64,000 bases of DNA, taken from positions 4,288,972 through 4,352,971 of the forward strand of contig NC_045146.1 of the NCBI RefSeq assembly GCF_008831285.2. The letters run 5' to 3'. Under the pieces are notes generated by a model. The model made no database searches and was not told the DNA's origin. It worked only from the letters and a program-made list of their open reading frames with translations. The DNA is from Nymphaea colorata (lineage: Eukaryota > Streptophyta > Magnoliopsida > Nymphaeales > Nymphaeaceae). The position numbers and the translations under genes are program-made. How positions within the stretch are numbered: the first letter of the stretch is position 1; each line of letters starts with the position of its first letter. Shown here in pieces: positions 30,870-53,607 of this stretch.

Positions 30870-45505
<14,636 letters not shown>

Positions 45506-45623
45506 CTATCTGGGCAACAACATTCCTTGTGTAAACTTAAAATGCATTATCAAGACCATAGAAGAAGCTATTCAATTCTGCGAGCCTCATAGGCACTTTC
45601 AAGGCAAAAAACTGATCAACCGC
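45506..45623 (-). pseudogene. PATROL1/unc-13-like (DUF810) exon with in-frame stop
   Basis: Minus-strand exon of 118 nt with acceptor TAG/GCGGTT and donor ATAG/GTGAGC. It reads AVDQFFALKVPMRLAELNSF, then FYGLDNAF, a stop, then VYTRNVVAQI. The family has AFQVYT here, so the TAA at 45537-45539 replaces a glutamine CAA/CAG codon. Members of this plant family (PATROL1, MUN/MHD1 domains) help deliver proton pumps to the guard-cell plasma membrane. Splice sites remain canonical. The stop and the inverted neighbouring exon make this copy unable to give a full product. Confidence 0.85.
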
Positions 45624-45837
45624 CTACTCGTTAAGAAAAGAAAAAGATATAAGACATGAGGGCATGAAAAGTTCTCTCTCATAAAGCATGAAGTAAGAAG
45701 AACCAACATTGTATGTCAAGAAAGAATATGAAAATCCACAAGTGTTGGCAAAGAACATTCAAGAGCACACAAGTCAAACATAGGAGAAAATGATTAAACA
45801 GCTGCAAGCTGTCACCCAGAGGAAAACCTGCTGGAAG

Positions 45838-45927
45838 CCAGGGAGTTGATTCTTTCCATTAGAATAGGTCCGGTATCAAAATCCAGGGAGTTGATTCTTT
45901 CCATTAGAATAGGTCTGCTATCAAAAT
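45838..45927. repeat. 45-bp tandem duplication
   Basis: Two adjacent 45-bp copies starting CCAGGGAGTTGATTCTTTCC (45838 and 45883) that differ at two positions. It lies between two DUF810 pseudogene exons, so it is recent and non-coding. Confidence 0.95.
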
Positions 45928-46799
45928 GAACTGATGAAAACAGATCAAACGTTCATTAGTAAGACATGGTAACTTTAGTATACATAAGTGTTAGAGGCAC
46001 CCAAAGATGCGCCTGCATGACAATCCCATGCAGCGGTTCGACGACAAAAAAGAAGATACGTGAAAGATTCACCTCTAATGTCAACATATCAAGGAATAGA
46101 ATAGAAACATCAATCCCATGACCAAAATCAGCTACAAGATTTTTTTATTTTTTTAGCCACTCCAATACATGCATCATGAGCAATACAAATTAGACTTAGT
46201 TGTGGGGTACTATTGATAACAAGACCATTGCATCAATACACTTCAAATGCCAGTAACTTTAGAAGAAAAAAAAAGAATTTGACTAAATGTAAGGTTGAAA
46301 TGCTGAATTTAGGACTGCTAAGCATTGCCAATAAAGGACAACCTTTAACAAGAGAAACATGAAAGTTCCAAAATAATCAAGGCAAGCTTTGGAAAAGGTG
46401 TTTCGCAGTGAAGGAAACCTAAATTCTTTTCAGAAATTCTCAAGAACACACCAAAATATTTAAAAATAATAAAAAACATGCCTAATGCTATTCATCAAAC
46501 CAGAGTTTTTGCCCTGTTAATAAGAAAGGCCTCATGTTAATTGAACCATAGCTTGTTCATTAATTACATTAGGTTAATGAGATCAAATTATTAAATAGCA
46601 TCCATGTAAACAATAAATTTACAACCGACCACTCAACCTTTGGGCAATAACAAATGGATCATCATTTTTTGCACCACAATAAATAGGCTGTCTTCTTATA
46701 AAAAAGACATTAAAATATATACATAATTTGCCATTTTAACCTTTCTTTAAATTTATTTTTAGAAAATAAAATTTAAATTAAAAAATCACCAGCTGCAAT

Positions 46800-47200
46800 G
46801 GGAGACAGTGGCCATCCATAGATCTCCACCAGATGCTGAGGATTGAGGCGGCAACATCCAATTCCTAGTTGCTCGCGAAGGGTCGATTGCTCAACCCTTG
46901 TTATCCCACTCACTCCCTTGTCATGGAACAAGGATGGTCAGGACACACAATCCTTGTTGTTCTGGCAAGGGTCGAACCATTGCCCTGCCCAACAGTTATG
47001 GTCGAGGACAGCCCTAATCTTCACTGATCCGTTCGACAACGAGGATCGCTTGGCTGAGGGTTGGGTCATCCTCAACCCTCATCCAAAAAGGGCGAGGGCT
47101 CGACTAGATCGATGAGGGTCAAAAAAGCAATCTAGATGCCGCTGCTCCGATCCTTACCATCCAGCCAAGGTTGACAGCTGACAGGTGGCTGCTCCTCATT
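46800..47200. repeat. GC-rich island with repeated GGGTCGA motifs
   Basis: About 400 bp much richer in GC than its surroundings, with several AAGGGTCGA/GAGGGT/AACCCTTG motifs in both orientations. No protein match was found; the 90-residue plus-strand frame here looks accidental. Probably a transposon relic. It lies just before the inverted DUF810 exon. Confidence 0.4.
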
Positions 47201-47320
47201 CTTGGGGATTTAGCTAAGTGCAGTGTCTGTGTCTATTTTCTGCCAATATTCATTTGCTTTCTCTTCTTCTTTTTCTCCATTTTCGCTTCTTGTGGTTAAT
47301 GTGTGCTGCAATACTTTCAG

Positions 47321-47392
47321 AAATGGGAACCTTTATCACCTCAACAGCACCATGGGAGTTCAATTGTTGAAGTATATCAGATCATAGAGGAG
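47321..47392 (+). pseudogene. PATROL1/unc-13-like (DUF810) exon, inverted relative to its neighbours
   Basis: Plus-strand exon of exactly 72 nt with acceptor TACTTTCAG/AAATGG and donor GAGGAG/GTATAT. It reads KWEPLSPQQHHGSSIVEVYQ, then IIEE. In the family this segment follows ERAIQQE directly and precedes VDQFFALK. Both of those flanking exons are present nearby on the minus strand (47616-47708 and 45506-45623), and phase is preserved at both joins (0/0 and 0/0). Position is therefore collinear but orientation is reversed. Confidence 0.9.
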
Positions 47393-47615
47393 GTATATGC
47401 ACAGTTACCCTTGTGTGTGTATGTGCATGCACACATGTGCATGTATACATGTGTGCTATGTGTGATAGATATTCCAATTTACAATGCCTACAAATAAGAA
47501 AGGTGCATTGTTGAAATACTAGAGACATTCGGCTTGGGTTGACTAAAGATCTCAAAAAAGTGGTAAAGTGTCGCATTGATTAGATTCAATAAAAAGTTAG
47601 TATACTGCAACTCAC

Positions 47616-47708
47616 CTCCTGCTGAATTGTTCTTTCAACCCACCCTAAAATCCTTTCCATCTGAGAGTTTACCCAACGCATTACCAGCATTCCTGATATT
47701 GATTCGAC
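47616..47708 (-). pseudogene. PATROL1/unc-13-like (DUF810) exon
   Basis: Minus-strand exon of 93 nt, acceptor CTTGTAG/GTCGAA and donor CAGGAG/GTGAGT. It reads VESISGMLVMRWVNSQMERI, then LGWVERTIQQE, matching the family's VESLSG...LRW(I/A)NSQL...ILxWVERA segment. It is intact in itself. The next exon of the gene is the inverted one at 47321-47392, so a transcript from this strand would skip or misread it. No upstream exon was identified with confidence. Confidence 0.88.
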
Positions 47709-50700
47709 CTACAAGCACATGCAAAAACCAAGGTTAGAAGGCATACAAAATAGCACATAAATCATTAGTTTAAATCATAAGCTAGAGTGCTCGTGTTGTG
47801 CAAATGATATGTCATTCATTTACCCTCAGTACCGTACAAGCATCAGGATGCATTTCGCATCAATATTGTTGAATCTCTAGAAGGGATGCCTTTCAATTTC
47901 CAAAACATGAACATAAAGGAACCATTCTCCACGTTTTAGAAAATCGAAAAGAGGAGTAGATATTGACCCAAGGATTGCACATCCACGAAAAATCATTGCA
48001 TTCAATTCCTCTGAGTTCAGCCTAAATGCCATTCATCTCTTGGCACACCTTTTTTTGGTTTTCTTGCTTTTTTTCTTTTTTTTTTTTGCATTAAGCTTTT
48101 TGCCTTTTTCTTTTTTTTTTCTTTCTTGCTTTTGATTTTTTTTTAGGCTGACCTTCACCTTTGAGGGAATACCTCACCACCCCAAAGGGCAAAGACTACT
48201 AGGGAGCTCTACCGCTTTGGTGGTGATGTGAATCTCACCATTGTTCATTAAGATCCATGGTGCTCCCATATCTACAGCGAAAGAGACACACTCTTATTGA
48301 TAGACTGAGCTTTGCTTTGAATCTATTTAATTTTAACTCTCGCTCAACAAACATATGCTGGTTCGACAGTTTTATTCTTGATGCTTGTATGGCTATTTTC
48401 TCTCCTTTCTAGATTGCTTGGTTATTCATATTTCAGATGCAACGGATGCCTAGAACATGACAAGGCTTTCTTCATGCACCCAATGGTAGACTTGGGAAAA
48501 GGATGAACACCCTCTCGGTGCCACTAGAACTAGTGTGTTGTATTTCACAGGCAGATTTTTCTGACAAAAAATCATATCTAAAATGGCAGAAAAGGCAGGT
48601 TTGTGGTCTGTAGATTCTTCATGCTGTAGTTGTGAGATCTTCTTTTCCAATCTAGGAGTGAACTTTTGCTTTTTCTGTTTTTCTTTAGTAGTTAAATATA
48701 CTAGAAGAGGACTTCTACACCATCCTGCGATGCCATATGTTGAGTCAGACTGTCCTTTTGGCAAAGATTGAAGAATCTGAGGTATTGCCCCTGCACTTGC
48801 TTAAAGGCCTGCAGGTGGTGATCTTACAGGTGATGACTATCACTAGGCAGATGGTTACCATCTTAATGTCAAATTATATAAGAAGCTGCTATTTAGTGTT
48901 TTTGTCATATTGGACGAGTGAAATTGTTAGCAACGGTTAGCTAAGGGATACATTAATTTGTCTGTCAAGCGAAATGAATTGTGGGGAGAAACCGAAAGCC
49001 GGCAAAAAAAAAATGTAGAATTTATTTTTACAAGGATGGATTGTTAACAATGGTGCGGAGCACCAACTGTCACGTTTTTGGCCCCCTTTGAATGGTTGAG
49101 GGAACAAACGAGGTTTTGCACATAAGTCAGGTTTTTGAGAAATTAGATTTGCAAATAACTTGAACTTAACTCTTTCTTTTTGAATTTCAAAATTTGGGTT
49201 TGCAAACAAAAAAGGTAGACCCTAGTCAATTCAGTTTCCATTTTATATATTGGCAGTCCTCTGTAAAAGAAAGGTAGATCTTTTTCCTGCGTTTTGGCGA
49301 AGGTTGTGCAAATTGGTATAGGCATGATATCATTCTGATCGACTGGTGGCCGGAAAATGGTAGAGCTTCTCCCCCACCGTGAAGTGAATTAGATGGAAAG
49401 GGTGAAAACATTGCCCTCTCTCCCTGAGTTTCAGAAACCTGATCTTCTTATCATATCAGCTAAGAGAACGGGAAAGTATGATTTTATATAAAAAATTGGT
49501 TTGACTCTTGAAACCAAAATTTCAACCTGATTCCAGATGCGTTAGGCCTTTTCAAACCTCACGTAATCACTTAAAGGTAATAACATAACCAAAGTTCATT
49601 TAGCCTAAGATGAAAATTTTTTGCCTACCCAAACCTGGACCTAATTGTAATTCAATTCCCGCATGGGACTTTGTGGAAAACCTAGTTTACCTTAATGACA
49701 GTAATAATATCAAAATGTGACCAGACCAAGTCAAATTCAATGTAAAATTAAAATGGGTTTACTCAGTTTTCACCATATTCTCTTTCATATATGATTATAT
49801 TTCAGTACAATGAGTTAAATTTATGTACCATAAGGCCTCGATTTGAAGCTTTTGAGTATTTTCAAACCTAAATAATCAATTACTTGGACATTAGGGATAT
49901 GATATGATTTATGTAATCAATATTGCTCCTTATCCAAGCATATCGGCTGATAATTAAGCATTGTATTAGCCCCTATTGATATGATAAAAGACAGTACTAG
50001 TTCTTTTTTATTATTTATCTTTTTGTTTGTCATTGAATTTGAAATATTTTGGATTTTTTTTCAACTTATGAAGCAAAAAAAAAAGGTGATAGGCTTTAAT
50101 CTTATTTAACAATACATTTCGGCCTTAAAGTGGCAAGATTTTCTATGGAAAGGGGACACCCAACGAGGAAGGTGCCTTGGAAATTTTCTTTGGTGACTTG
50201 GAAAAGGTTTTGTATGGCCTTATTAATCGCTACTTTATGAACTTTATAATCGATCTGCAGTTATCTTGGAAAGATCTCATGTGGTTCTTTTATGGTAGGA
50301 TGAAGATGTCGTTGAGTTGAAGTTGGGTTCTCGTGCGTGTCTTACAGAGTGTTAAAACGGTTTTTTTGAGAGCTATCATTGGTTAAAGGTTGTCAGAACT
50401 CCTATATTCGTCTACTACTAAGGCTTGTTGACATGATGCCGAACTGAGGCAAGTATTAGAGACTGGAACTTTTGGAAAATCCGGTGCTGATCAGTGGGTG
50501 TTATAAAAAGTGGTGCACCTTAGGTATTTAAATTCTTTACTATTTCAACAAGAGAGGACCTTAGCTTGAGTTCAAATACCTAAGGAAGTCGGTCAATACT
50601 AGTTATATATTTTATTCTTTTACATGTTTCGATGGCTGAAAAGACAAAAATGCCTTCAAAAACATAGAAAGGAACTCCGTCTAAAGAAAAAATTGGAAGG

Positions 50701-52849: not shown

Positions 52850-53607
52850 AAAAATATATCTGAGATATTTTAAGGCGAGCAAACATAGAGAATACAAAAT
52901 CTTGGTAACGTCTGCTGCTCCAAATGTTCCTCTATCTAAACTTGATGGTGAAAAAATGAAACTCAGTACCGACAAATCGTGGGAGCACTTCAGTATGTCA
53001 CTTTAACACGCCCAGATATTACTTTTGCAATGAATAAGGCTTGTCAGTTCATGCACCAGCCTACTTCAACTCACTAGATTCATGTCAAAAGAATTTTACG
53101 ATACCTTAAAGGTACCATGCAGCATGGCTTTGAATTTTCAAAATCTAATTCTTTCATTTTATTTACTTACTCTGATGCAGATTGGACTGGGTGCCCAGAT
53201 GATCGAAGATCCACTAGTGATTATGTTAAAAAAATTGGACAGAATATCATATCTTAGAGATCTACCAAACAATAGACAGTGGCAAATGAAAGATTTCATA
53301 AGTGATATGACTAATTAACTTGATGAAAGATTTGGGAATTCAAACTAAGGAAAAACCAGTTTTGTGGTGCGACAACATTGGAGCAACATATTTGGCGGCA
53401 AATCCAGTTTTCCATGCACGAACGAAACACATATAAATTGACTATCATTTTGTTAGAGAAAAGGTGGCAGACAATACAATTGAGATTAAATATGTTCAGT
53501 CGGAAAAGCAGTTCTGATATTTTTACTAAGCCATTACCAGGACCAAGGTTTCATTATCTCAAGGAAATGCTAAACATCCTTGAAATGAAGATTGGATCGA
53601 AGGAGCA
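52850..53607 (+). mobile_element. Truncated Copia polyprotein (RT tail and RNase H)
   Basis: Plus-strand Copia pieces in order: [20 protein letters not shown] (from about 52911), [60 protein letters not shown], then RNase H pieces [47 protein letters not shown] and SDIFTKPLPGPRFHYLKEML (to about 53575). Stops and frameshifts lie between pieces. GAG, integrase and most of the reverse transcriptase are absent, so it is 5'-truncated at about 52850. A purine-rich tract leads into the LTR at 53608. Confidence 0.9.

Follow-up and report, generated by a model that had tools for sequence, protein, structure and literature searches.

The closest described systems are two kinds of small inversion. Microinversions were surveyed in introns and genes of birds (PMC3123225), and a delINVdel class has been described in human genomes (PMC5338099). 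In one reported human case, two deletions of nearly 6 and 10 kb flank an inversion of 298 bp, and the second deletion removed the first 5 exons of CEP78 (PMC6286558). A flip of a single exon in a plant nuclear gene was not found in a narrow literature search of titles and the starts of abstracts, which leaves the absence of such reports unproven. The stretch analysed here (the window, 64,000 nucleotides, C9:4288972-4352971 in the searched assembly of 407,766,735 bases, or 407.8 Mb, in 783 contigs) contains a copy of a PATROL1-like gene in which one exon is reversed between its neighbours. Very probably, this arrangement goes back to one small rearrangement that took place in an early PATROL1-like duplicate; the carrier was already a pseudogene or became one, and had its DNA copied later.

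Exon 15 (A) occupies 47616-47708 on the minus strand (93 nt, phase 0) and is open, with the translation VESISGMLVMRWVNSQMERILGWVERTIQQE when read from 47708 to 47616. Exon 16 (B; 72 nt, phase 0 at both ends) lies at 47321-47392 on the plus strand, flipped relative to its neighbours, and translates as KWEPLSPQQHHGSSIVEVYQIIEE. Exon 17 (C) is found at 45506-45623 on the minus strand (118 nt) and reads, from 45623, AVDQFFALKVPMRLAELNSFFYGLDNAF*VYTRNVVAQI, with an in-frame TAA at 45537-45539. Each of the three is preceded by AG and followed by GT on its own strand, so the splice sites are intact. The original prediction had found these exons correctly ordered and the middle one on the opposite strand, and had described the latter as a 72-nt exon of matching phase in a PATROL1-like (DUF810) gene. 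The translations and splice sites confirm order and reversal, the size and phases of exon 16 agree, and the three exon peptides joined, with X at the stop, belong to Pfam family PF25761 (TPR_PATROL1) with E = 8.1e-27 and a score of 94.5 bits, the cut-off being 27. With the exon 16 peptide from the paralogue X2 (see below) as query, 47321-47392 is matched at 50.1 bits; shuffling the window 30 times by a first-order Markov model gave at best 20.4 bits, and chance is therefore excluded for exon B.

At this locus, PATROL1-like gene fragments and repeats form a mosaic. Part of the gene's exon 20 lies at 44948-44993 on the minus strand, and the plus strand carries remnants of exon 6 (48452-48601, with a stop inside) and exon 8 (48784-48918, with stops inside), which the original prediction did not mention. 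Their orientation is head-on to that of exons 15 and 17 and marks a second, larger rearrangement. A functional PATROL1-like gene has an open frame over collinear exons; the window copy instead has the TAA in exon 17, a reversed exon 16, stops in exons 6 and 8, and no exon 18. Since the TAA in exon 17 is in frame, this copy is a pseudogene. The predicted exon set was thus found, but not in an otherwise intact copy. A repeat with a sharp left edge (44098-44947) borders directly on the gene fragment, the join being at 44947/44948; among the matches listed for it, 34 of 70 start at 44081-44108, with 70-97% identity. The same join of this common repeat to the gene fragment occurs in the window, at L009 and at C9:3.80. 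A Pack-type transposon, whose dispersed copies would have common ends and target-site duplications, may be considered as a carrier of the fragment. Another repeat of ~485 nt (47748-48233), with copies on many contigs, lies between the minus- and plus-strand gene fragments, and 52900-53400 holds what, by eye, we take to be a decayed fragment of a Copia-type retrotransposon.

An intact-looking PATROL1-like gene, X2, is present in the same genome (C1:36482138-36503207). It was located with a PATROL1 probe sequence, the matches being ordered and on a single strand. The model from spliced alignment has 25 exons, all of them on one strand, and its 1084 codons contain no stop; an in-frame TAG lies two codons past its end. 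The start codon falls outside the model, so that "intact" here means open over the modelled exons. Exons 15, 16 and 17 of X2 are found at 36494719-36494811, 36495096-36495167 (72 nt, phase 0 at both ends) and 36497524-36497641. The uninverted order is taken from one locus, X2, together with the exon order of the PATROL1 probe sequence; among the loci found with exon B, X2 alone has it. A gene at C2:30702501-30712500 was considered as an outgroup for the breakpoints and rejected, as the peptides of exons A, B and C had no match there at the threshold used. It shares 28-53% identity with the PATROL1 probe in four pieces and 39-49% with X2 in five pieces, and judged by these values it is a more distant relative. 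Three more PF25761 genes were seen (C12:19229476-19230742, C1:29060177-29061354 and C6:8634362-8635546). Their best matches of >300 positions each lie in one open frame, which implies fewer introns than in X2.

Alignment with X2 delimits the reversed segment. It covers 47186-47537 on the plus strand and comprises exon B together with intron sequence on either side, 135 nt ahead of the exon and 145 nt behind. Window positions 47544-47748 align in reverse, 47186-47537 forward and 46339-47180 again in reverse, the corresponding X2 segments being 36494668-36494883 (minus), 36494971-36495312 (plus) and 36495937-36496822 (minus). The flipped block, 352 nt long in the window, corresponds to 342 nt of X2 at 92% identity, in an orientation opposite to that of its flanks. 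The original prediction of a small inversion with breakpoints in the two flanking introns is supported by this comparison with a paralogue from the same genome, which places them at 47181-47185 in intron 16 (C-side) and at 47538-47543 in intron 15 (A-side). The same reversal in place between collinear flanks is seen at two other loci. X1 (C1:36470108-36476761), ~5 kb upstream of X2, is collinear with it over ~12 kb of gene; the match starts at exon 12, reaches exon 20 and continues into intron 24. Gaps have taken exons 14 and 18 among others, and only the flipped block is reversed. At L013 (C8:5.07 Mb) the block is reversed between flanks of a single orientation, and exon A is gone.

The junctions are shared far beyond the window. 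The C-side junction was found at no fewer than nine loci on five contigs: the window, L009, L010, L013, C9:3.80, C1:2.9, X1, and the tandem copies X3a and X3b on C5. The genome search scores best candidates only, and all counts of loci and copies are therefore lower bounds. Beyond this junction only about 51 nt of the flipped segment remain at C9:3.80 and about 43 nt at C1:2.9. A second search, for which 701 nt of X2 starting at 36495300 served as query, gave 18 matches; those of all nine junction loci start at query base 637-643, and the others are X2 itself, C12:5721651 and seven matches to the end region of a transposon. The A-side junction is present in six of the seven copies aligned (window, L009, L010, X1, X3a and X3b), L013 diverging just beyond it. 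Exons A and B are on opposite strands in all six inverted-lineage copies that have both, as are exons B and C in all five that have both. X3 has two exons B, both reversed, within a tandem repeat of the A-B unit; at C5:25041830-25045110 (L012), the unit of exon A and flipped exon B occurs twice in tandem in one pseudogene copy.

These copies bear directly on other explanations of the reversed exon. Similar copies elsewhere, with 79-98% identity in aligned pieces, make it conceivable that the 352-nt segment was placed backwards in the window contig by misassembly. The identical C-side junction, however, recurs at those nine or more loci on five contigs and the A-side junction in six of seven copies, and the aligned copies differ by about 1-8% and have private indels; an assembly error is therefore rejected, with a negligible chance of being correct. 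It is also extremely improbable that exon B belongs to a separate plus-strand gene copy. The exon 6 and 8 remnants at 48452-48918 do lie on the plus strand, but they leave exon 16 unexplained: it precedes exons 6-8 here where it should come after them. Moreover, exon B is reversed in X1 and L013 too, although exons 6-8 there lie on the strand of exon C (in X1 on that of exon A as well), and the intron around B stops where the A-side and C-side introns pick up.

An insertion of exon B in reverse from another copy, with separate loss of the native exon, would produce an identical final sequence, but it would need two events at one place. In the inverted-lineage copies, no forward exon B was seen between A and C, and the segment carries local intron sequence on either side of the exon, which makes this route very unlikely. 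Comparison of the copies favours instead an inversion that arose once in the ancestor of a pseudogene lineage, which was then copied. The predicted inversion thus holds, but its placement at this locus does not: the shared junction puts the event elsewhere. Nor was it a simple flip, as intron sequence is gone on at least one side.

The order of events can be approached through further shared changes. The TAA triplet in exon 17 is present in all six inverted-lineage copies aligned (X1, X3b, window, L009, L013 and C9:3.80), and X2 and X4 have CAA in its place; X3b has further changes just ahead of the TAA, including an earlier stop. X1 and X3b share a deletion of exon 18 with identical edges (X2 36497793/36498316), and the window has also lost this exon in a slightly larger deletion. 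X4 (C5:18.66 Mb) lies outside the inverted group; it has kept exon 18 and lost exons A and B, and is therefore uninformative on the orientation of exon B. When 8 sequences of the exon 17 region are placed in an unrooted tree, X2 and X4 stand apart from the other six with a support of 0.986. A tree of the flipped block (8 sequences, without X4) separates the window, L009, L010 and L013 from X2, X1, X3a and X3b (0.944), a split that is compatible with an inverted lineage and by itself does not place X2 as the outgroup. Pairwise identity in the block is 92.8-94.7% between X2 and the seven inverted copies and 97.1-98.8% among the window, L009, L010 and L013, from which it follows that the flip predates the dispersal of the latter four copies. 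In X1 and L013, exons 6-8 form a block right after a piece of intron 24 and share the strand of the other gene parts; the opposed strand of this block in the window therefore points to a further rearrangement in the sub-lineage of the window.

Intron 16 contains an inverted-repeat transposon at the C-side break. In X2 both ends of the element are present (36495658-36495786 and 36496408-36496536), forming inverted ends of 129 nt with 76% complementarity. Related end sequences are present at other sites too, as would be expected for a family of transposons; at two of these, C14:9.18 Mb and C1:15.37 Mb, they form opposed pairs ~1 kb apart, and C12:5721651 is a separate copy that continues through the breakpoint. 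The intron 16 part of the window (46339-47180, minus strand) holds the right-hand remnant, with the terminal-repeat region at about 46610-46740. Since the inverted copies keep the right part of the transposon (in part) and lack the left, with the break inside the element, at least 279 nt of the left side were lost, and probably also the stretch back to X2 36495314, either during the flip or at this site at a later time. On the A-side, 87 nt are present only in X2; these may possibly have been lost as well, which would make the event a "deletion-inversion-deletion", and a later insertion in X2 would look alike. By eye, the junctions share at most about 3 nt and contain a few extra bases, about 7 on the C-side that resemble adjacent sequence. 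End joining of two breaks and template switching would both fit such junctions and are given about equal weight. We propose that in an early PATROL1-like duplicate, ~342 nt with exon 16 were excised and rejoined in reverse at the same place, either by joining of two breaks with little homology or by template switching during replication, with the intron 16 transposon as the likely source of one break. The carrier would have been, or have become, a pseudogene, as the common TAA in exon 17 and the loss of exon 18 suggest, and its DNA would later have been copied elsewhere, the window included.

Sequence comparison gave no sign of a new function of the flipped exon. By its orientation, exon B cannot be joined with exons A and C in one transcript. 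With its 72 nt and phase 0, exon 16 could be skipped in frame, yet translation would still end at the TAA in exon C. Taken together, these two features make a function unlikely, and the flipped exon 16 likely has none. It is improbable to a high degree that putative transcripts of the flipped-exon copies, with antisense sequence of exon 16 or else of exons 15 and 17, pair with X2 mRNA and feed small-RNA silencing; if they did, pseudogenes with a flipped exon would regulate the intact gene. Reversed exons with kept splice sites could mislead gene finders. The copies also illustrate that one flip event can multiply through later duplication, the common junction marking one copy lineage.

Compared with PATROL1/DUF810 genes of plants (PF25761), the window copy is alike in exon content and protein similarity and differs in being fragmentary, with stops and reversed parts. 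With microinversions as presented in the available part of the avian survey (PMC3123225), it shares a reversed segment of <400 bp in place between collinear flanks; it differs in that the segment includes an entire exon and belongs to a lineage of pseudogenes copied to several loci. The delINVdel variants, as far as the portions consulted describe them (PMC5338099, PMC6286558), likewise combine a short inversion with flanking deletions, and the missing left half of the intronic transposon provides such a loss on the C-side. Unlike those, the flip in the window is fixed in duplicated plant DNA and is not a disease allele, and its flanking losses amount to hundreds of bases or less, that on one side being unproven. 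As a mutation, the flip belongs to a known class, of which it is a well-resolved case: a single exon in plant nuclear DNA, resolved to the base, with an intact-looking gene at hand for comparison.
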